64,000 nucleotides of DNA, from the NCBI RefSeq assembly GCF_001684965.1, contig NZ_MAYG01000001.1, forward strand, positions 620,001-684,000, in the 5' to 3' direction. This document shows positions 30,506 through 41,757 of this stretch, in pieces (position 1 is the first letter of the stretch; each line of letters starts with the position of its first letter). The stretch is from Chryseobacterium arthrosphaerae. GTDB lineage: Bacteria > Bacteroidota > Bacteroidia > Flavobacteriales > Weeksellaceae. The notes under the pieces are model-generated. The model did not search any database. It was not told the DNA's origin and was given only the letters and a program-made list of their open reading frames with translations. The position numbers and the translations under genes are program-made.

Positions 30506-31459
30506 ATGAAAAAATTCACCTCTGTAAGTGATGTGGAAAACTTACAGGAAATTATAAAAAAAGCTTTACAGATAAAAGAAAATCCACTTTCCGAAACAGA
30601 AAAAGGAAAAGGAAAAACAATAGGACTTGTATTTTTAAACTCAAGCTTAAGAACCCGTTTGAGCAGCCAGATTGCAGCACAGAACTTAGGCCTGAATGTA
30701 TTGACGTTAAATGCGGCACAGGAAGCCTGGAACCTTGAGTTCGCTGACGGCGCGGTAATGAATGGAGATACCGTAGAACATATCAAAGATGCCATCGAGG
30801 TTCTTAATCAATATTGTGATATCATTGCCGTACGTTGCTTTGCAGGAATGAAAAGTAAAGAAGATGATGTAAATGAAAGCATTCTGAGCCAGTTCGAGCA
30901 ACATGCGAAAGTGCCGGTTGTTTCTTTGGAATCGGCAACACGTCACCCGTTACAAAGCCTTGCAGACTGCATTACCATTACCGAAAACTGGAAAAAAGAA
31001 CATAAACCGAAAGTAGTTCTTACCTGGGCACCGCATATTAAACCGATCGCCCAGGCCGTTGGAAATTCTTTTGCAGAATGGATGCAGGAAATGGATGTGG
31101 AATTTGTTATCACAAATCCTGAAGGTTATGATTTGGATCCTGCATTTACAAAAGATACAAAAGTGATCCACAATCAGGATGAAGCATTGAAAGATGCAGA
31201 TTTTATCTATGTGAAAAACTGGTCTTCATTCGATGATTATGCTGCAATGCCGGAAGTGAAAGAAAACTGGATGCTGACGAATGAAAAACTGGAAAATACC
31301 AATCAGGCCAAAGTAATGCACTGTTTACCCGTTCGCCGTAATGTAGAATTGAGTGATGAGGTAATGGACGGAGAAAATTCCATTATCTACCAGCAGGCAA
31401 AGAACCGTATTTTCTCTGCACAGGCTGTATTCAGTGAAATCCTGAACAATATAAAATAA
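30506..31459 (+). CDS. argF': N-acylornithine carbamoyltransferase ArgF', predicted succinyl type
   Basis: This 317-residue transcarbamylase moves carbamoyl from carbamoyl phosphate to N-acylornithine. The carbamoyl phosphate loop is FLNSSLRTRLS, and the family-specific HCLPVRRNVELSDEVM is near the end. The N-acyl class is shown by length and by ATRHPLQSLAD and WAPHIKPIAQAV, as in Bacteroides SOTCase. Residue 90 is Val (GDTVEHI), where Xanthomonas AOTCase has Glu92 and Bacteroides fragilis SOTCase has Pro90. Published swaps of that Glu to Pro, Ser, Ala or Val turned the enzyme to succinylornithine, so the succinyl substrate is predicted. The 3' tail joins the tandem repeat. Confidence 0.9.
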   Translation: MKKFTSVSDVENLQEIIKKALQIKENPLSETEKGKGKTIGLVFLNSSLRTRLSSQIAAQNLGLNVLTLNAAQEAWNLEFADGAVMNGDTVEHIKDAIEVLNQYCDIIAVRCFAGMKSKEDDVNESILSQFEQHAKVPVVSLESATRHPLQSLADCITITENWKKEHKPKVVLTWAPHIKPIAQAVGNSFAEWMQEMDVEFVITNPEGYDLDPAFTKDTKVIHNQDEALKDADFIYVKNWSSFDDYAAMPEVKENWMLTNEKLENTNQAKVMHCLPVRRNVELSDEVMDGENSIIYQQAKNRIFSAQAVFSEILNNIK

Positions 31460-31824
31460 CAATATCCAAAAAGTCCCGAAGGGACGTCTTAATCCCAAGA
31501 TTGGATGAAGTCAGTAATTTTGAGGAATATAAAATAACAATACCCAAAAAGTCCCGAAGGGACGTCTTAATCCCAAGATTGGATAAAGTCAGTAATTTTG
31601 AGCAATATAAAATAACAATATCCAAAAAGTCCCGAAGGGACGTCTTAATCCCAAGATTGGATGAAGTCAGTAATTTTGAGCAATATAAAATAACAATACT
31701 CAAAAAGTCCCGAAGGGACGTCTTAATCCCAAGATTGGATGAAGTCAGTAATTTTGAGCAATATAAAATAACAATATCCAAAAAGTCCCGAAGGGACGTC
31801 TTAATCCCAAGATTGGATGAAGTC
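31447..31824. repeat. 78-bp tandem repeat, nearly five copies, between argF' and argB
   Basis: The hairpin core GTCCC-GAA-GGGAC starts at 31473, 31551, 31629, 31707 and 31785, giving an exact 78-base period. Copies differ at only a few bases. The first unit includes the last codons and stop of argF' (CAATATAAAATAA), and that stretch is carried into each later copy; the last copy is cut short before the argB start at 31839. Because 78 is a multiple of three, ORFs run through on both strands, but I do not take these as genes. Confidence 0.9.
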
Positions 31825-31838
31825 CAATAAACCATCAC

Positions 31839-32633
31839 ATGAAACAGAAAATATACATCGTAAAAATAGGCGGAGCGCTCATTGATGATGAGCGGTTGCT
31901 GGATCAGTTTTTAGATCAGTTTTCAGGTATTAAAGAAAAGAAAATCCTTGTTCACGGCGGAGGGAAACTGGCAACAACTCTGGCTGATAAGCTTGGTATA
32001 GAACAGAAAATGATCAACGGAAGGAGGATTACGGATAAAGATACTCTGGATATTGTAACGATGGTGTATGCAGGAGGGATCAATAAAAATATTGTTGAAA
32101 AACTACAGCAGAAAAAATGTAATGCCATAGGATTTTCCGGGGCAGACGGAAATTTAATTAAGGCAAAAAAGAGAGAACATCCTGAAATTGATTTCGGATT
32201 TGTGGGAGATATTAATAAGAAAAGTGTGAACAGGAAACTTGTTTCAAAATTAATCAAACTTGATCTTGTTCCTGTGTTTTCTGCAATTACACACGATAAA
32301 AAAGGGAACCTTTTCAATACCAATGCAGATACCATTGCCTCGGTGATGGCTCAGGCACTGTCTGAGAAATATGAAGTTGAATTACTGTATTGTTTCGACA
32401 AAGAAGGTGTTTTAGAAGATGTGAATGATCCTGAATCTGTTATAAAAAGTGTAAACGAACAGGAATTTACCACATTGAAAGAAGAAGGAAAATTGCACAA
32501 AGGAATTTTGCCCAAACTTGAAAACGCTCTTGGAGCGATAAAAAATAATGTAAATAAAGTGTTTCTGATCAAGGAAACCGAACTGAAAAACCATATAGAG
32601 AATCATCATGCAGGAACTGAAATCTGTTTATAA
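31839..32633 (+). CDS. argB: N-acylglutamate kinase
   Basis: This is a 264-residue amino-acid-kinase fold protein that phosphorylates N-acylglutamate. KIGGALIDD, LVHGGGKLATTLADKLGI, the substrate loop INGRRITDKDTL and NTNADTIASVMAQAL are clear. The N-terminal helix found in arginine-inhibited hexameric kinases is absent, which fits a dimeric, feedback-insensitive form. It starts 15 bases after the last tandem repeat copy and overlaps argE by 26 bases. Confidence 0.94.
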   Translation: MKQKIYIVKIGGALIDDERLLDQFLDQFSGIKEKKILVHGGGKLATTLADKLGIEQKMINGRRITDKDTLDIVTMVYAGGINKNIVEKLQQKKCNAIGFSGADGNLIKAKKREHPEIDFGFVGDINKKSVNRKLVSKLIKLDLVPVFSAITHDKKGNLFNTNADTIASVMAQALSEKYEVELLYCFDKEGVLEDVNDPESVIKSVNEQEFTTLKEEGKLHKGILPKLENALGAIKNNVNKVFLIKETELKNHIENHHAGTEICL

Positions 32634-33690
32634 TAAAGAAGAGTTGTTGAATAATGCCGTTGGATTGCTTAAAAATCTGATTGAAATCCCTTCATTCAGC
32701 AAAGATGAATTCAATACCTCGGTAGAGATCGAGAATTTTTTCAAAAAACATCAGATCCCGACCAAACGTTTTAAAAACAACATCTGGGCAGTTAACAAAA
32801 ACTTTGATGTATTTAAACCGTCAGTTTTATTGAATACTCATCATGATACCGTAAAACCCAACAAGGCTTACACGCTCGATCCGTTTGTGCCCGTTGAAAA
32901 AGACGGCAAACTCTATGGGTTGGGAAGCAACGATGCCGGAGCTTCACTGGTATCTATGGCTCAGGTTTTTTTACATTTTTATGAGAAAGAAGATTTAAAA
33001 TATAATTTAGTGATTGCTTTGACGGCAGAGGAGGAGATTTCTGGTTTTGACGGAATTGAGGCCCTGTTTCCACAGCTTCCCAATATTGAACTCGCCATTG
33101 TAGGAGAACCCACGCAGATGAATCTGGCGATTGCAGAAAAAGGATTGCTTGTGATAGACGGGGAAATGAAGGGGACTCCTTCTCATGCTGCTCATCCTAA
33201 TGATGATAATTCCATCGTGAAATGTATGCAGGATCTGCAGAATATTTTAAACTTTAAATTTCCTAAAGTTTCAGAATATCTGGGAGAAGTTAAAATTACT
33301 TTATCAGGGATCCATGCAGGAGTTCAGCATAATGTAGTGCCGGAATCATGCAACTTCACATTAGATGTAAGGGTAACCGACGAATATTCTAATAAAGAAG
33401 CCTTTGAAATCATTCAGTCGCAGATGAAATCTACCCTCACTGCGAGGTCTTTCAGGCTGAATTCCTCAAAGATCGAAATGGATCATCCGTTTGTAAAAGC
33501 AGGATTGGAAATGGGCAGGACAACATATGGTTCTCCTACATCCTCAGATCAGGCGATTATTCCATGTACCTCAGTGAAAATGGGGCCTGGAGACAGCAGG
33601 CGCTCCCATACAGCGGATGAATTCATCTATATAAACGAAATAGAAGAAGGAATTGATATCTACATCCGGGTTTTGGAGAAAGTGTTATAA
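32608..33690 (+). CDS. argE: M20 deacylase of the arginine pathway
   Basis: This 360-residue M20 metallopeptidase-fold enzyme should remove the acyl group from N-acylcitrulline. Metal and catalytic positions are visible: His in LLNTHHDTVKP, Asp in GSNDAGAS, the Glu pair in LTAEEEISGFDG, Glu in VGEPTQMNLA and His in RRSHTADEFI. The lid domain carries a typical GIHAGVQHNVVPE. Its start lies inside argB, so translation is coupled. In an ArgF' pathway its true substrate is acylated citrulline, not acylornithine. Confidence 0.92.
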   Translation: MQELKSVYNKEELLNNAVGLLKNLIEIPSFSKDEFNTSVEIENFFKKHQIPTKRFKNNIWAVNKNFDVFKPSVLLNTHHDTVKPNKAYTLDPFVPVEKDGKLYGLGSNDAGASLVSMAQVFLHFYEKEDLKYNLVIALTAEEEISGFDGIEALFPQLPNIELAIVGEPTQMNLAIAEKGLLVIDGEMKGTPSHAAHPNDDNSIVKCMQDLQNILNFKFPKVSEYLGEVKITLSGIHAGVQHNVVPESCNFTLDVRVTDEYSNKEAFEIIQSQMKSTLTARSFRLNSSKIEMDHPFVKAGLEMGRTTYGSPTSSDQAIIPCTSVKMGPGDSRRSHTADEFIYINEIEEGIDIYIRVLEKVL

Positions 33691-33994
33691 AGGATGGAAG
33701 CGGGAAGAAAAAGAAGGAAGTGGTGATTAATTTTCAGTCTCCGGCTTCAACCTTCTGGCTCAATAAATATTTTGACTAACGCTCAGCAAGCGATAAAGTT
33801 TACATTTTTAATAAAGATTTATGCAAAAATGACCATTGAAAATTGTGACTTTACAGAATAAGGAAATGTTTTTTTATAGTTAATAAATAATAAGGATAGT
33901 CTTGCTGGGCTTGTCAAAATCAGTCAAAAAATTTTAAATCGGGCTGTGATCAGATCGTTATCGATAGTACAGCCTTAAAAATCAATCATTACTT
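33691..33994. other. 304-base gap before argH, nothing identified
   Basis: I find no gene, strong hairpin or clear promoter. The length suggests that argH may have its own promoter, but no clean TTTG/TAnnTTTG pair stands out. Confidence 0.3.
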
Positions 33995-35299
33995 ATGAAA
34001 AAAATATGGCAAAAGGATGACCTGGCCACTAATATATTAGTCAATAATTTTACAGTAGGGAAAGACCTCGATTTTGATGAGCGTCTGGCTAAATATGATG
34101 TCAAAGGCTCTATGGCTCACTGTAAAATGCTTGCAGAGACAGGGATTATATCAGAAGAAGAATCAGTACAGATGCTGGCTGTTTTAGATGATATTTTAAA
34201 TACAATTGAGAATGGGACTTTTGAAATTGATAAAGAAGCTGAGGATATCCATTCTCAGATAGAAGCAATCCTGATTGCAGAATTGGGAGACACAGGAAAG
34301 AAAATTCATACGGCAAGATCCAGAAATGATCAGATTCTGCTGGATATCAAATTGTATCTGTTGGATGAGATCCGTGAGATCACAGCGCTTACGGATGAGT
34401 TCTTCCAGATTCTGATTCAGCTGGCAGATCAGCACAAAAACATACTGCTTCCGGGGTATACCCATTTGCAGATCGCAATGCCTTCCTCTTTCGGATTATG
34501 GTTCGGAGCGTATGCAGAAGCCCTTTTGGATGATGTGGAAATGCTGTTCTCGGTGAAGAATATCATCAATAAAAACCCGTTGGGATCAGCGGCAGGATAT
34601 GGCTCTTCATTTCCGATCAATCGTGAGAGTACAACCTACAATCTGGGGTTCCAGTCAATGAATTATAATTCGGTGTATGCTCAGATGACCCGTGGTAAGT
34701 CTGAAAAAATGCTGGCAATGGCAATGGCTACCTTGGCGGGAACCCTTGGGAAGTTTGCTTATGATGTTTGCCTGTATCTGAATCAGAATTTTGATTTTAT
34801 CAGCTTTCCGAAAGAATTTACAACAGGAAGCAGCATTATGCCGCATAAGAAGAATCCGGATATTTTTGAGCTGGTTCGTGCAAGATGCAACAGAATCCAG
34901 TCGCTCCCGAACGAACTGATCCTGCTGACGAATAATCTGCCGTCAGGATATCACAGAGATGTGCAGCTGACCAAAGAAATTCTTTTTCCGGCGATTGACT
35001 CCTTAAAGGAATGTCTGGAAATACTAAGCTATACCTTACCTAATATTAAGGTGAAAGACGGAATTCTGGAAGATGAAAAGTATAAATACCTGTTCAGTGT
35101 AGAAAAGATCAATGAAGAAGTCAAAAACGGAAGCTCATTCCGTGATGCTTATGTGAAAGTGGGGCAGGAGATCGAGAATAATGAATTTGAATTTGAGCCG
35201 GGAAATCTGGACCATACCCATCAGGGAAGTATCGGAAACCTTTGCCTGGATAAAATAGAATACCAGTTCAATAAACTGAAGAACAAATTATTGGGTTAG
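33995..35299 (+). CDS. argH: Argininosuccinate lyase
   Basis: This is a 434-residue member of the fumarase/aspartase superfamily, which splits argininosuccinate into arginine and fumarate. The signature GSSIMPHKKNPD is present, with HTARSRNDQI and LPGYTHLQIAMP also as expected. At 434 residues it is slightly shorter than E. coli ArgH. It is the last gene of the arginine set and is followed by a long non-coding gap. Confidence 0.95.
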   Translation: MKKIWQKDDLATNILVNNFTVGKDLDFDERLAKYDVKGSMAHCKMLAETGIISEEESVQMLAVLDDILNTIENGTFEIDKEAEDIHSQIEAILIAELGDTGKKIHTARSRNDQILLDIKLYLLDEIREITALTDEFFQILIQLADQHKNILLPGYTHLQIAMPSSFGLWFGAYAEALLDDVEMLFSVKNIINKNPLGSAAGYGSSFPINRESTTYNLGFQSMNYNSVYAQMTRGKSEKMLAMAMATLAGTLGKFAYDVCLYLNQNFDFISFPKEFTTGSSIMPHKKNPDIFELVRARCNRIQSLPNELILLTNNLPSGYHRDVQLTKEILFPAIDSLKECLEILSYTLPNIKVKDGILEDEKYKYLFSVEKINEEVKNGSSFRDAYVKVGQEIENNEFEFEPGNLDHTHQGSIGNLCLDKIEYQFNKLKNKLLG

Positions 35300-35603
35300 A
35301 ATCTGAACCATTAAGATCAAGGCACCTTAAGCTGAATGAGCAGCAATTTAAAAAATTACTTTAATACTGTCTTACACATTCGTTTGTGAATCCTTAATCT
35401 TAATAAATCTTATAGCTTAAGAGATCTTAATGGTTGGATTTTATTCCGCTCTTTGAATTTGATGATTGATGAACAGAACCATTAAGGTAGATGAAAAACT
35501 TATGGTCTATTAGGAAACCTGTGATTTTTTAGCAGCATTGTCTTAAAATTCGTTTACGAATTATACTTCTCACCACTAGCTCTCAATGGTTTGATAAAAA
35601 GGA
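35300..35603. repeat. Gap with AACCATTAAG / CTTAATGGTT motifs
   Basis: There is no gene here. AACCATTAAG occurs near 35307 and 35479, and the reverse complement CTTAATGGTT near 35428, suggesting an old palindromic repeat. The same CTTAATGGTT is found near 18750 by another repeat. No terminator for argH was clear. Confidence 0.4.
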
Positions 35604-36065
35604 TTATTCCAGATCGATTTTAAATTTCGTGGATTTTTTTACTTCATGAAGAACAATGGAACTGTGGTACTGCCCGATATTGGGAAGATTGGAAATAACA
35701 CTTACTGCAAATTCATTATAAGAGTTGATATCCTTTGCGATAATTTTCAGCATATAATCATACTCGCCGGAAAGACTGGTGATCTCCTGAACCTCATCGT
35801 ATTTGGAAATGTTTTTCTCAAAAGTCTCCAGTACTTTTTTAGATTGCTCCTTAAGACGCACATTACAATATACAATAATGTTCAACCCCAGTTTTTCACG
35901 GTTTAAAAGACCTACATACTTTTCAATGACTCCCTGCTTCTCCAGCTGTTTGATTCTTTCATACGTAGGAGTGAAGGTAAGACCTATCTTTTCGGAAATT
36001 TCCTTAACAGATAAAGTAGAGTCTTCCTGAATAATGCTGAGAATCATTTTGTCTTTTAAATCCAT
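35604..36065 (-). CDS. Lrp/AsnC-family transcriptional regulator
   Basis: The 153-residue length matches Lrp. An N-terminal winged helix-turn-helix (LSVKEISEKIGLTFTPTYERIKQLEKQGVIEKYVG) is followed by the RAM/AsnC effector-binding domain, including ITSLSGEYDYMLKI. The regulator lies between the arginine operon and the divergent pyrimidine operon, so control of one of them, perhaps by arginine or lysine, is a reasonable guess. Which amino acid it binds cannot be read from sequence. Confidence 0.92.
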   Translation of the reverse strand: MDLKDKMILSIIQEDSTLSVKEISEKIGLTFTPTYERIKQLEKQGVIEKYVGLLNREKLGLNIIVYCNVRLKEQSKKVLETFEKNISKYDEVQEITSLSGEYDYMLKIIAKDINSYNEFAVSVISNLPNIGQYHSSIVLHEVKKSTKFKIDLE

Positions 36066-36151
36066 ATACTAAACTTGAGTTGTAACAAAAATATTAATTT
36101 TAAATGAGAATAAGGAAGTACTGAAGTTTTTAATTTATTTTAAACTTAATT

Positions 36152-36182
36152 TTTGTGGGTTCATAAAATTGTTGTATCTTTG
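36152..36182 (+). promoter_or_regulatory. Promoter of the pyrB leader
   Basis: TTTG (36152-36155), a 19-base spacer and TATCTTTG (36175-36182) form a full match to the Bacteroidota consensus. The ATG of the leader ORF is at 36189, so the transcript should start at or within a few bases of that codon. Confidence 0.85.
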
Positions 36183-36188
36183 CACCTA

Positions 36189-36260
36189 ATGAATAAAAAA
36201 GCATTTATATCATTAGATTTACCGGGCGAAAGCGCCCTTTACGATATTTATTGTTATTAA
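36189..36260 (+). CDS. Leader peptide upstream of pyrB
   Basis: A 23-codon ORF starts about 6 bases after the promoter -7 element and stops at 36258-36260. The product begins MNKKAFISLDLPG and ends ALYDIYCY. It has no signal peptide character and no run of one regulatory amino acid. The stop codon touches the first base of an intrinsic terminator, and a hairpin with a U-rich tail lies inside the coding sequence, which is the arrangement of the enterobacterial pyrBI leader. It is probably translated from a leaderless mRNA. Confidence 0.7.
   Translation: MNKKAFISLDLPGESALYDIYCY
36224..36257 (+). promoter_or_regulatory. Pause-type hairpin and U-rich run in the pyrB leader
   Basis: GGGCG-AAAG-CGCCC (36224-36237) is followed by a 20-base stretch in which 12 bases are T (36238-36257). 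In E. coli pyrBI a hairpin followed by a U-rich run is where RNA polymerase pauses when UTP is low. The function here is by analogy. Confidence 0.6.
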
Positions 36261-36287
36261 GCGAAGATAGTTGTCTTCGCTTTTTTT
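36259..36287 (+). terminator. Attenuator terminator between leader and pyrB
   Basis: A 9-bp perfect stem (36259-36267 with 36274-36282), a 6-base loop and a run of seven T (36281-36287) lie 20 bases before the pyrB ATG. Its left arm starts at the leader stop codon, so a ribosome finishing the leader would block it. Confidence 0.85.
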
Positions 36288-36306
36288 ATGCCCAAAAATA
36301 AGAATT

Positions 36307-37197
36307 ATGTTTACGATTACAGAACTAAGCACCGAGAGAATCAACAGTATACTGACAGAAGCAATGGCTTTTGCAAACGGTAAAACTGCCAAAATTGAAG
36401 GAGAAGTTTTTTGCTCAAACCTTTTCTTCGAAGACAGCACAAGAACGAAAACAAGTTTTGATCTTGCAGAAAGAAAACTGGGACTTCAGGTAGTTCCTTT
36501 TGATGCCTCGCACAGCTCTGTAAATAAAGGTGAGAGTCTTTATGATACTGTAAAAACCATTGAAAGCATAGGCGTAAACCTTGTGGTGATCCGTGATAAG
36601 AAAGACAGATACTTTGAGGAACTGAAGAATATCAGCATTCCGGTAATCAACGGGGGAGACGGAACAGGTAACCATCCTTCACAGTGTATGCTGGACCTGC
36701 TGACAATCTACCAGGAATTCGGAAAATTTGAAGGATTGAAAGTAGGAATTGTAGGAGATGTAAAACACAGCCGTGTAGCCAATTCAAATGCAGAAGCTTT
36801 AAGAAGGTTAGGCGCTAAAGTATATTTTTCAGGACCGGAACAATGGTTTGACGAAGGTGCTCTGATCAACGGAACCTACCTTTCAGTAGATGAGCTGATC
36901 GCTGAAGTGGATGTTCTGATGTTACTGAGAATCCAGCACGAAAGACATGACTCTGCCATGAGCTTCACCGCTTCCGAATATCATAAAAGATACGGGTTGA
37001 CCAAAGAAAGAGAACAGGCTATGAAAAAAGAAGCGATCATCATGCATCCGGCACCCATCAACAGAGGTGTTGAGATAGACTCAGACTTAGTGGAGTGCGA
37101 AAGATCAAGAGTATTCAAACAAATGCAGAACGGAGTATTCGCCAGAATGGCAATCCTTAAAGAAGCACTGGAAGAAAAAGGGTTTACCTTTAAATAG
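36307..37197 (+). CDS. pyrB: Aspartate carbamoyltransferase catalytic subunit
   Basis: The product has 296 residues. It makes carbamoyl aspartate, the committed step of pyrimidine synthesis. [20 protein letters not shown] is the carbamoyl phosphate loop; [24 protein letters not shown] and [12 protein letters not shown] follow. I start at the ATG at 36307; an in-frame TTG at 36271 falls inside the terminator and is unlikely. No pyrI regulatory subunit is adjacent, so control by UTP is more likely through the leader than by allostery. Confidence 0.96.
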
Positions 37198-37221
37198 CTA
37201 ATAGCCAGGGTAAAAATAGGC

Positions 37222-37316
37222 GAGCCCCGTAGGGGCGACCTGTTAATAGCAAGGGGTGAAGCCCCTGCAACAAAAGAAAAAATATAATATGAGCCCCGTA
37301 GGGGCGACCTGTTAAT
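37222..37316. repeat. Two GAGCCCCGTAGGGGC repeats between pyrB and carA
   Basis: The repeat starts at 37222 and 37291 and runs about 26 bases each: GCCCC-GTA-GGGGC then GACCTGTTAATA. A third small palindrome, AGGGGTGAAGCCCCT, lies between them (from 37251). Structurally it is the same design as the repeats at 28075 and 31473. Confidence 0.85.
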
Positions 37317-37341
37317 AAAAAAGAAAATCTAAATAGAAAAA

Positions 37342-38415
37342 ATGAAGAAAAAATTAATACTGGAGTCCGGTGAAGTGTTTCATGGAGAAGGTTTCGGAGC
37401 AGATTTGGAAACTGCAGGGGAAGTAGTTTTCAATACCGGAATGACAGGGTATCAGGAATTGATCTCTGACCCGTCTTACTGTGGTCAGATAGTTTGTATG
37501 ACCTATCCGCTTATCGGGAATTATGGTATTAACCGTGATGATTATGAAAGTATCGAGCCGGCAATCAAGGGGCTTATCGTAAAAGAACTTTGCGACCTGC
37601 CTTCCAATTTCCGTACTCAGATCACTTTAGATGAATTATTTAAAAAGAAAAACCTTTCCGGAATCTCAGGAATCGATACAAGAAGACTGACAAGAATTCT
37701 GCGTAACTCAGGAGTAGTGAAAGGAAAAATTGTGAATGCAGATGCCGATGAAAACGCTGTAGCTTCAGAATTGAAATCAACCAGCTTCCCAACAAATCAG
37801 GTAGAGGAGGTTTCTACAAAAACACCGTATGCCAACCCTAACAGAGGTTTCAAAGTGGTATTGGTGGATTTTGGAGCAAAATTAGGGATCATCAGAGAAT
37901 TATCTCAAAGAAACTGTGATATCATTGTAGTTTCTCAGGATACTACGGCAGAAGAAATCCTGCTGATGAATCCGGACGGAATCATGTTATCCAACGGCCC
38001 TGGTGACCCGGAAGATGTACCACATGCTTTAGATATGATCCGTGGCTTATTGGGAAAAGTCCCGATCTTCGGAATCTGTTTAGGACATCAGCTGATCGGT
38101 CTTGCTTGCGGAGCTAAAACATTCAAACTGAAATTCGGTCACAGAGGAGGAAACCATCCTGTATTGGATTTAGAGAAAAACAAAGTAGCAATCACGTCTC
38201 AGAACCATGGGTATGCTGTAGATCAGGAAAGTTTAAAAGGAACAGACCTTATTGAAACACACATTGCATTGAATGACAGAACAAACGAAGGTCTGAAACA
38301 CAAAATTCACCCTTGTTTCTCCGTTCAGTATCACCCTGAGGCGAGCCCGGGACCTGAAGATGCAAACTACTTATTTGACGAGTTTATTCAAATGATGGAA
38401 GATTTTAAGAAGTAA
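37342..38415 (+). CDS. carA: Carbamoyl-phosphate synthase small (glutaminase) chain
   Basis: This 357-residue protein has an N-terminal CarA-specific domain and a C-terminal class I glutamine amidotransferase. The catalytic Cys is in PIFGICLGHQLIGLA, and the His-Glu pair is in SVQYHPEASPGP. It frees ammonia from glutamine for CarB. The glutaminase partner is placed before carB, as usual. About 145 bases of repeats separate it from pyrB. Confidence 0.97.
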   Translation: MKKKLILESGEVFHGEGFGADLETAGEVVFNTGMTGYQELISDPSYCGQIVCMTYPLIGNYGINRDDYESIEPAIKGLIVKELCDLPSNFRTQITLDELFKKKNLSGISGIDTRRLTRILRNSGVVKGKIVNADADENAVASELKSTSFPTNQVEEVSTKTPYANPNRGFKVVLVDFGAKLGIIRELSQRNCDIIVVSQDTTAEEILLMNPDGIMLSNGPGDPEDVPHALDMIRGLLGKVPIFGICLGHQLIGLACGAKTFKLKFGHRGGNHPVLDLEKNKVAITSQNHGYAVDQESLKGTDLIETHIALNDRTNEGLKHKIHPCFSVQYHPEASPGPEDANYLFDEFIQMMEDFKK

Positions 38416-38424
38416 GACACCCCA

Positions 38425-38497
38425 TTTGTCATTCTGAATGAAGCAGAAGCGGAATGAAGAATCTTAACAATAGAATTAGATTCCTCGGAATGACAAA
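38425..38497. repeat. GTCATTCTGAA-type repeat between carA and carB
   Basis: The ends TTTGTCATTC (38425-38434) and GAATGACAAA (38488-38497) are perfect inverted arms around about 53 bases that contain GAATGAAGAATCTT. This is a small MITE-like unit related to the one at 18694. Confidence 0.7.
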
Positions 38498-38574
38498 GTG
38501 TGTTAATTCAATTTAAATAAAAAGCATAATGCTGGAAGTTTAAATTCAAACTTTTAGTATCTAAAAAAAGAAAA

Positions 38575-41500
38575 ATGGCAAAACGTACAGATATAAAAAC
38601 AATTTTAGTAATCGGTTCAGGACCTATCATCATCGGTCAGGCAGCTGAATTTGATTACGCAGGAACGCAGGCTTGTCTGTCTCTGAAAGAAGAAGGCTAC
38701 AAGGTTATTTTGATCAACTCAAACCCTGCAACGATCATGACGGATGTGGAAATCGCTGATAAAGTATATATCGAGCCGATTTCACTACAGTTTGTAAGCC
38801 ACATCATCAGAAAAGAACGTCCGGATGCATTACTGCCTACTCTTGGAGGCCAGACAGGTCTGAATATGGCAGTAGAACTGGAGAAATCAGGAATTCTTGA
38901 AGAATGCAAAGTGGAAGTACTGGGAACCAAGCTTTCTGCCATCAACAGAGCAGAAGACAGAGACCTTTTCCGTGAGCTGATGAGAGAATTGAACGAACCG
39001 GTTCCTGAATCTGATATCGTAAATACGGTAGAAGGAGCATTGGCTTTCGCAGATGAGATCGGATATCCTGTAATTGTTCGTCCTGCCTTTACCATGGGAG
39101 GTACAGGAGGTGGTATCGCTTCCACTGAAGCAGAATTAAAAGAAATTGCAGAACTGGGATTAAAGCATAGCCCGGTGACACAATGTCTTATCGAGAAATC
39201 AATTGCAGGTTTCAAAGAAATAGAATATGAAGTAATGCGTGATGCAAACGACAACGCTATTGTAGTTTGTAACATGGAAAATATTGACCCGGTAGGAGTT
39301 CACACCGGTGACTCCATCGTAGTGGCGCCTTCTCAGACTCTTTCAGACAGAGAATATCAGTTGTTGAGAAATGCTTCTTTAAAGATCATCAGAGCATTGG
39401 GAATTGAAGGAGGATGTAACGTACAGTTAGCTTTAGACCCACATTCATTCGATTATTATATCATTGAGGTAAACCCGAGAGTTTCCCGTTCATCAGCACT
39501 GGCAAGTAAGGCAACAGGCTATCCGATTGCAAAAATTGCTGCAAAGATTGCTGTAGGATTAACGCTGGATGAAATCATGAACCCGGTAACAGGAAAAACA
39601 TACGCATGTTTCGAGCCTGCTCTTGACTATGTGGTAACCAAATTCCCAAGATTCCCGTTCGATAAATTCGAAACAGCAGACAGAAGACTTTCTACTCAGA
39701 TGAAAGCTACCGGAGAAGTAATGGCCATCGGAAGAAACTTCGAAGAATCTCTGCAGAAGGCAATCCGTTCACTGGAAACAGGGATCAAGCATTTAGGATT
39801 AAAAACAAAACAGGCTCAGGCCCTTACTGCTGAGGAAATCGAAAGAAGAATCAGAGTGTGTGATGATGAGAGGTTATTCATTATCGGAGATGCTTTAAGA
39901 AGAGGATATGATTGGGAGCAGATTGTAGAATGGAGTAAAATCGACAAATTCTTTATCTGGAAACTGAAAAAGCTGGTTGATTTCGAAAAAGTAATCGCTG
40001 CCAACAAATTTGATAAAGAAACATTAACTGAAGCGAAGAAACTGGGTTTTGCCGATATCAACATTGCAGTTCTTTGGGAGGTAACAGAGCGTGAAGTCTT
40101 CAATTTCAGAAAAGAAAACGGAGTAATGCCGGTTTACAAAATGGTAGATACCTGTGCAGCAGAATTCGAATCTGAAACACCTTACTTCTACGGAACATAC
40201 GAGGAAGAAAACGAAAGCGTGGTTTCAGCTAAAGAGAAGATCATCGTATTAGGGTCCGGACCTATCAGAATCGGGCAGGGAGTTGAATTTGACTACGCAA
40301 CGGTTCACTCTGTTTGGGCAATCAAAGAAATGGGGTATGAAGCGATCATCATCAACAACAACCCTGAAACGGTTTCCACAGACTTCTCAATCTCAGATAA
40401 ACTATACTTCGAGCCGCTTACAGAAGAGGATGTGATGAACATCATCGAGCTTGAAAAACCTAAAGGGGTAGTCGTACAGTTTGGTGGGCAGACAGCGATC
40501 AACCTTGCAGATAAATTAGCTTCTCACGGAGTACAGATCCTGGGAACTTCACTGGAAGATCTTGACAGAGCTGAAAACAGAGATAAATTTGAGAAAGCTT
40601 TACAGGAAATGGGTATTCCTCAACCAAAAGGAAGAACTTCCACTTCTAAAGAAGAAGCGATAAAAATCGCCAATGAAATCGGTTACCCGGTATTGGTACG
40701 TCCAAGCTACGTTTTAGGAGGTAGAGCAATGGAAATCGTATATGCTGAAGCAGAATTGGCCCACTATATGGAACATGCGGTAGACGCAAGCCCTGAGCAC
40801 CCTGTTTTGGTTGACAAATACATGGTAGGAAAAGAAATCGAAGTAGATGCCATCTGCGACGGTGAAACAGTAGTGATTCCGGGAATTATGGAGCACATCG
40901 AAAGAGCAGGAGTTCACTCCGGAGACTCTATCGCAGTATATCCGCCACAGAATATCTCCCAGAGCGAAATCGATACTTTGGTAGATTATACAAAGAGACT
41001 CGCAAAAGGACTGAATGTAATCGGGTTGATGAATATCCAGTACGTTCTTTTCGAAGGAAATGTATATGTGATCGAAGTAAACCCACGTTCTTCAAGAACA
41101 GTTCCTTTCTTATCCAAAATTACAGATGTTCCGATGGCCAACCTTGCTACAAAAGCAATTTTAGGACAAAAACTGAAAGATCTGGGCTACGAAAACGGAT
41201 TGGTTCCGAACAAAGAAGGAGTATTTGTGAAAGTACCTGTATTCTCATTCTCTAAACTAACGAAAGTTGATATCTCCTTAGGCCCTGAAATGAAGTCTAC
41301 CGGAGAGGTAATGGGGAAAGATACCACTCTGGAAAAAGCACTTTACAAAGGTCTTGTAGCAGCAGGCAGAAAAGTTCCTATGCACGGGTCCATCCTGTTC
41401 ACGGTAGCAGATAAGCACAAGCAGGAAGCTGCTGATCTGGCTGCAAGATTCCATGAGGTAGGATTCAGAATCTGGGCTACGGAAGGAACAGCGAAATTCT

Positions 41501-41757
41501 TTGAAGAAAAAGGAATTCCTTGCAAAATAGGATACAAAATCGGAGAAGAGGACGTCAACCTTATCGACCTGATCCAGAAAGGAAAAGTTCAGTATGTGGT
41601 CAATACCACTACAAAAGGAAAACAGGCAGAAAGAGACGGATTCCAGATCAGAAGAATGAGCGTAGAGAACGGTGTACCTTGTTTAACTTCAATGGATACG
41701 GTAGAAGCGATCCTGAAAGTAATCGAGAGCATGAGCTTCAAGATGGAAACGATGTAA
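38575..41757 (+). CDS. carB: Carbamoyl-phosphate synthase large chain
   Basis: This is a 1060-residue enzyme made of two homologous ATP-grasp halves. The first half begins with [22 protein letters not shown] and the second, after residue 550, with [22 protein letters not shown]. Each half has the carboxyphosphate or carbamate ATP site ([13 protein letters not shown] and [12 protein letters not shown]). The C-terminal MGS-like domain (about 930-1060) is where UMP and ornithine act in E. coli CarB. Its product feeds both pyrB and argF'. It ends with a terminator. Confidence 0.97.

Follow-up and report, generated by a model that had tools for sequence, protein, structure and literature searches.

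Organization of the pyrB locus

The window, the whole stretch of 64,000 nucleotides of Chryseobacterium arthrosphaerae DNA that was analysed, carries on its plus strand argH and then, past a divergent Lrp-like gene (35604–36065), pyrB, carA and carB. All parts of the leader sit between the Lrp-like gene and pyrB (Table 1). Eighty related loci, all from Chryseobacterium, encode PyrB proteins of 91–98% identity.

Table 1. Features of the pyrB leader and the genes behind it, in window positions.
Feature	Position	Strand	Basis
−33 element, TTTG	36152–36155	+	sequence; mean column entropy 0.56 bit over 36148–36156 in the genus
−7 element, TATCTTTG, Bacteroidota sigma-A box TAnnTTTG	36175–36182	+	sequence; entropy 0.016 bit, 56 distinct genus leaders
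Predicted transcription start, 5′ UTR of 1–2 nt	36187–36188	+	position of the box
Predicted 5′ hairpin pairing the start codon (UAAUGAAUAAA with UUUAUAUCAUUA, one bulge)	36187–36215	+	fold; P(ATG paired) 1.00
Leader ORF, 23 codons and TAA stop	36189–36260	+	sequence; frame kept in other genera
5-bp hairpin GGGCG/CGCCC, candidate pause hairpin	36224–36237	+	stem kept, pairs exchanged between genera
U-rich tract, 12 of 20 T, candidate UTP-sensitive pause region	36239–36258	+	last 20 nt before the terminator stem
Intrinsic terminator, stem 36259–36282, T run 36281–36287	36259–36287	+	sequence, terminator scan, alignment
pyrB, aspartate carbamoyltransferase catalytic subunit	36307–37197	+	passes the NCBIfam aspartate carbamoyltransferase cut-off; ATG at 36307
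carA, carbamoyl-phosphate synthase small subunit	37342–38415	+	
carB, carbamoyl-phosphate synthase large subunit	38575–41757	+	

The gaps between the genes carry repeats of their own, recognised by eye. Between pyrB and carA (37221–37318) there are two copies of an gagccccgtaggggcgacctgttaata element, which is REP-like. The gap between carA and carB holds an imperfect inverted repeat, gtcattctgaatgaag ... attcctcggaatgac (38428–38500), presumably of the kind found between Bacteroidota genes. In two other genera the carA–carB gap contains an ORF of 119–120 aa (L263, 2377–2736; L265, reverse complement 2318–2680). Elsewhere in the window, a tandem repeat with a unit of 78 bp (26 codons) is present in 4.9 copies that are 96% alike (31443–31824); long frames are open across it on both strands. 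The repeat lies between a gene for an N-acetylornithine carbamoyltransferase-like protein and the ORF that begins at 31839.

Architecture of the leader

The leader begins with a promoter of the Bacteroidota type, a class of box that the sigma-70-type promoter scan of the window does not cover. The TAnnTTTG box is located at −12 to −5 (PMC9723704), and a spacing of 4–5 nt is given for probable promoters of F. johnsoniae (PMC6847099). Transcription would accordingly be expected to start one or two nucleotides before the AUG, and the mRNA would therefore be nearly leaderless; in F. psychrophilum, 5.5% of the mRNAs that were mapped are leaderless (PMC9723704).

The leader ORF extends from an ATG at 36189–36191 through 23 codons, MNKKAFISLDLPGESALYDIYCY, to a TAA stop codon at 36258–36260. 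It contains a hairpin that reads GGGCG-AAAG-CGCCC, and its last part is formed by the U-rich tract. At least 12 T are found in 1039 of the 63,981 plus-strand 20-mers of the window, so that T content alone is not rare. The stop codon overlaps the left arm of the terminator by 2 nt. The terminator stem has, by the scan, 10 pairs around a loop of 4 and is followed by the T run, where transcription would be predicted to end. Seven terminator-like sites were found in 33000–40000 against 5.0 expected, so the terminator alone is unexceptional; the whole 106-nt leader is more stably folded than shuffled versions of itself (z −3.56). The promoter, the 23-codon ORF, the hairpin inside it and the tract with 12 T in 20 had all been proposed in a sequence-only reading of this DNA and are confirmed here. 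The terminator of that reading likewise stands in its place, with its arm at the stop codon, and only the 9-bp stem has to give way to the 10 bp of the scan.

Conservation within Chryseobacterium

A comparison of 64 leaders from the genus, in which 8 identical ones were merged, left 56 distinct sequences, one of which is misread by the hairpin pattern. Low mean column entropies mark the −7 box (0.016 bit), the left terminator arm (0.101), the right arm together with the T run (0.136) and the ORF (0.202); the promoter spacer, the terminator loop and the segment between terminator and pyrB are more variable, at 0.80, 0.87 and 0.69. Within the leader ORF the values for codon positions 1, 2 and 3 are 0.061, 0.305 and 0.250. 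As the third position is no more variable than the second, the encoded peptide seems not to be what is kept. The GGGCG and CGCCC arms of the hairpin are mostly retained and its loop bases change. A GNRA tetraloop (C-GAAA-G) had also been considered for this hairpin and was dropped, since the loop bases vary within the genus and the 5-bp stem is kept.

The same layout in other genera

In 24 other genera of the family 50 loci were examined, and 48 show the succession of sigma box, ATG, short ORF, U-rich tract, terminator and pyrB; chance is excluded because the layout is kept in this way. The count treats as misses L122 and L123, which fell below the score limit of the script and were inspected, and includes L098, whose leader the script missed and which was set by hand; L002, a paralogous carbamoyltransferase, and L056, which duplicates L001, were excluded, and the weak DNA hits L057–L063 were never counted. 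The distance from the sigma box to the ATG is 6 nt in 42, 5 nt in 5 and 7 nt in 1 of the 48 leaders. The leader frame is open to 13 nt from the terminator in 47/48, compared with 7 and 17 for the other two frames and 13.3 expected from dinucleotide shuffles. The stop codon ends between −13 and +2 nt from the start of the stem in 41/48, and in the remaining 7 the ORF continues into or past the terminator.

The leader peptides differ widely between genera, and the layout stays while the sequence drifts. In the alignment, both sides have changed in 5 of 9 pairs of the terminator stem. The sequence-only reading had looked to just such an alignment for its support, and in the relatives the stop codon does stay at the terminator arm while the stem, the hairpin bases and the peptide change; its view that the mRNA looks leaderless gains from the spacing of 5–7 nt between box and ATG that is kept across genera. 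Taken together, the sequence comparisons show that the open frame is under selection and the particular peptide is not.

These data also bear on a simpler account, in which an ordinary terminator is combined with promoter control by the divergent Lrp-like gene and the ORF is of little matter. An lrp gene does lie upstream in 122/123 genus loci (from two collections, with some genomes present twice) and in both g32 loci. However, no lrp match occurs within 1500 nt on either side of pyrB in L048–L055 (8 loci from 4 genera), where the leader is nevertheless kept, and the ORF frame itself is selected, which together make this account highly improbable.

The U-rich tract and the upstream hairpin

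For tests by genus the first listed locus of each of 24 genera was used (the window's own and 23 others; g17 absent). The 20 nt before the terminator stem consist of 54.6% T and 30.8% A in these 24 genera, own included, with T rising from 36.2% further upstream to 68.6% in the last 13 nt. The motif ATATTT is present in 40/48 other-genus leaders and absent from 8/48. In the 37 leaders that have it near the stem, a count that leaves out 3 with ATATTT more than 50 nt away, it falls in frame 1 in 28, in frame 0 in 7 and in frame 2 in 2. What is conserved is a U-rich stretch of RNA read in different frames, which suits UTP as the signal and does not suit a codon signal.

An attenuator of the same build could instead sense general translation capacity, GTP/ppGpp or an amino acid, for which aspartate was considered as the substrate of PyrB and arginine for the shared carbamoyl phosphate. 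The anatomy reveals coupling and not the ligand, and Asp and Asn do make up 7.1% and 9.4% of the leader residues, with DD in 4/24 and NN in 4/24 genera. Against an amino acid stands the shifting frame of the conserved tract; moreover, among the six residues scanned (D, N, R, Q, E and H) runs of each occur in at most 4/24 genera, and of Arg in 0. Amino acid attenuators of the trp/his type share with the pyrB leader a short translated leader before a terminator, but this leader has no common run among the scanned residues, and in the one sequence folded, that of the window, the minimum-energy and centroid structures have no competing antiterminator, the hairpins being separate. A signal other than UTP is therefore regarded as unlikely.

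The upstream hairpin is kept less uniformly. RNAalifold on a MAFFT alignment predicted the terminator only and not the upstream hairpin, which was therefore tested by script in its own register, the best hairpin being chosen and shuffles treated alike. A hairpin of at least 4 bp that ends 14–29 nt before the stem is present in 21/24 genera, and none by this rule in g13, g16 and g22. The tests for single genera are weak (p 0.000–0.145 in the 21 genera) and combine to a Stouffer z of 5.6 with the three hairpin-less genera taken in as misses; since related genera are not independent, significance is overstated by the Stouffer values and by those from shuffles. Counted from the loop, the second pair is CG in 9, GC in 9 and AT in 3 of the 21 genera, and the fourth is GC in 9 genera and equally often CG. 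The hairpin is thus kept with exchanged pairs, which counts as support and not as a formal probability, the genera being related. In 17/21 genera the first UUU follows 8–13 nt past the hairpin, near the 11–12 nt of hairpin-stabilised pauses in E. coli.

Distribution of the leader

A covariance model (R1) was built from 33 leaders; the window's genus supplied 2 of its 64, and 31 were taken from the 48 of other genera. In the window's own genome it gives one match of 84.8 bits. The next, of 33 bits, is not a second copy: it maps to the end of a gene, and the ORFs on either side of it are both read from the other strand, its position in the locus being assumed from the locus layout.

Matches were obtained in 104/148 family genomes, and this set equals, by comparison of genome handles by eye, the genomes with an intact pyrB minus nine of genus g17. 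The other family genomes have a pyrB fragment only (G227), weak carbamoyltransferase matches only (seven g21 genomes) or neither (27). The match lies about 6–30 nt upstream of pyrB in the roughly 25 rows compared and 113 nt upstream in G175. In G184 there are two pyrB genes, on contigs C11 and C42, each with its own leader. Three matches of 49–53 bits in g23 look like gene-end terminators and were not accepted as second copies, and a match of 44 bits in G222 was set aside because it resembles a terminator, precedes a carB-like ORF and shows no clear leader ORF. In the genomes listed for g8, g10, g19, g21, g28, g29 and g31 a convincing pyrB and the leader are both absent, some g21 genomes having the weak carbamoyltransferase matches only.

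The nine g17 genomes have pyrB and no R1 match. At the g17 loci L122, L123 and L262 a U-rich tract and a different terminator, ACATCTTA...TAAGATGT, lie in an open frame with no clear ATG. This upstream layout possibly represents an independent leader.

In a sample of the phylum R1 matches 7/296 genomes, all in the Chryseobacterium family, in a search with strict filters and a family-trained model that may miss distant forms. The leader matches no Rfam family at cut-off; at E up to 10 there are 6 sub-threshold hits, none credible and none a PyrR family, the best scoring 18.9 bits against a cut-off of 58.7. An Rfam family exists for the RNA of PyrR binding sites.

PyrR not found in the family

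A PyrR query found no match in the family (0/148 genomes). In a sample of the order the same query matches 84/119 genomes at E ≤ 1e-5; for 76 of these E is below 1e-40. None of the 14 family genomes inside that sample has a match. At 20/20 loci from the order's other families a PyrR-sized ORF ends no more than 60 nt from pyrB, and such an ORF adjoins pyrB at 14/20 loci of the phylum sample. Three of these ORFs, one from the order and two from the phylum loci, were scanned against the NCBIfam PyrR model and all three pass its cut-off. The PyrB of the family is only 36–46% identical to the main PyrB matches of those relatives. The absence of PyrR, the different PyrB and the leader go together. 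PyrR attenuation, as in other Bacteroidota and in Bacillus, is also control of pyr genes at the level of RNA; relatives in the same order carry the PyrR gene by pyrB, whereas no PyrR gene was found in the 148 genomes of the Chryseobacterium family, and the leader lacks an Rfam match. At three loci outside the family that have no PyrR-size ORF directly upstream (L225, L227 and L242), a terminator-like hairpin and T run precede pyrB.

That an RNA-binding protein or a riboswitch acts on the hairpin and terminator, with the ORF incidental, would be compatible with the strong nucleotide conservation within the genus, where the hairpin stem and terminator arms are kept. Between genera, however, the hairpin sequence changes freely and the open frame (47/48) is selected; with PyrR not found in the 148 genomes and no Rfam family reached at cut-off, such a mechanism is very unlikely.

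Proposed mechanism and comparison with E. coli pyrBI

The leader is real, widely conserved and built like that of E. coli pyrBI, with new features. In E. coli, RNA polymerase runs on and terminates when UTP is abundant; when UTP is scarce it pauses, and the ribosome prevents formation of the terminator (PMC10135430, PMC5021804). It is probable that pyrB of Chryseobacterium is set by UTP supply through a translation-coupled attenuator of the same kind. Transcription would begin one or two nucleotides before the AUG, and a ribosome loading at the 5′ end would trail RNA polymerase. With plentiful UTP the polymerase would outrun the ribosome, the terminator just behind the leader stop codon would fold, and transcription would not reach pyrB. 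With scarce UTP the polymerase would slow at the hairpin and the U-rich tract and the ribosome would catch up; standing at the stop codon, or running on in some genera, it would mask the terminator's left arm, allowing transcription into pyrB. That the polymerase pauses, that the ribosome is coupled to it and that UTP is what is sensed are proposals made here from the arrangement of the parts. The downstream carAB genes are probably under the same control as pyrB.

The E. coli pyrL–pyrBI leader, with its parts read by eye, has the same leader ORF, hairpin, U-rich tract, intrinsic terminator and pyrB in the same order, as the sequence-only reading had held; the likeness is one of layout, and sequence similarity is not claimed. 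The pyrL ORF differs in having 44 codons and in running through the terminator, whereas that of Chryseobacterium has 23 and ends at it, although 7/48 other-genus leaders have an ORF that runs into or past the terminator as pyrL does. The predicted 5′ UTR of only 1–2 nt and the predicted start-codon hairpin are further differences from E. coli, where pyrL is preceded by an untranslated stretch. Finally, pyrB is followed by carA in Chryseobacterium and by pyrI in E. coli. That no pyrI adjoins pyrB had been pointed out before and is borne out; pyrI is no part of the attenuation mechanism.

To our knowledge the pyrBI strategy is known only from Proteobacteria. Among the matches listed from open-licence PMC full texts there was no description of a pyrB leader of this kind in Bacteroidota. 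Leader-peptide attenuation has been suggested for amino acid operons of F. psychrophilum, in a section that names no pyr genes, and the same source has a list of 64 structured 5′ regions (PMC9723704). If the proposed mechanism is correct, the pyrBI strategy would operate in another phylum, and there in a family from which the protein regulator is missing. It would also mean that in Bacteroidota the ribosome keeps close enough to RNA polymerase for attenuation to be feasible, and a single reporter would allow a direct test of coupling in a phylum that lacks Shine–Dalgarno sites. The leader is also a family-wide candidate regulatory RNA without an Rfam match.

A predicted hairpin closing the start codon

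The start codon of the leader ORF is predicted to be paired within the 5′ hairpin (Table 1). Neither this pairing nor the missing PyrR figured in the sequence-only reading. The probability of a paired ATG is at least 0.95 in 10/24 genera and below 0.25 in 5/24 (combined z 4.4), and CATT, the complement of AATG, occurs at most 45 nt after the ATG in 32/50 loci against 10.1 in mononucleotide shuffles. Where base −2 is T the partner is CATTA in 4/5 genera and CATTG in none, and where it is C the partner is CATTG in 7/18 and CATTA in 1, a pattern that was noticed first and counted afterwards. We infer that FPL or ISL is common to many leader peptides because these codons form the pairing arm. In genes of F. 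johnsoniae the surroundings of the start codon are less prone to pairing (PMC6847099), and pairing in the pyrB leader would on that account be unusual. A paired start codon would count against the attenuator model, since loading of ribosomes would be hindered.

A more speculative proposal, which is thought doubtful, takes in both this hairpin and the missing PyrR: a protein-free UTP switch would have replaced PyrR in the ancestor of the family and would include a self-closing start. As the mRNA would begin at the AUG, the second arm of the hairpin, made about 20–30 nt later, would shut the start codon, and ribosomes could load only in the brief interval before that arm emerges. A polymerase slowed by lack of UTP would lengthen this interval for loading and also allow the ribosome to close the gap. 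Were this correct, two UTP-dependent steps would be combined within about 70 nt.
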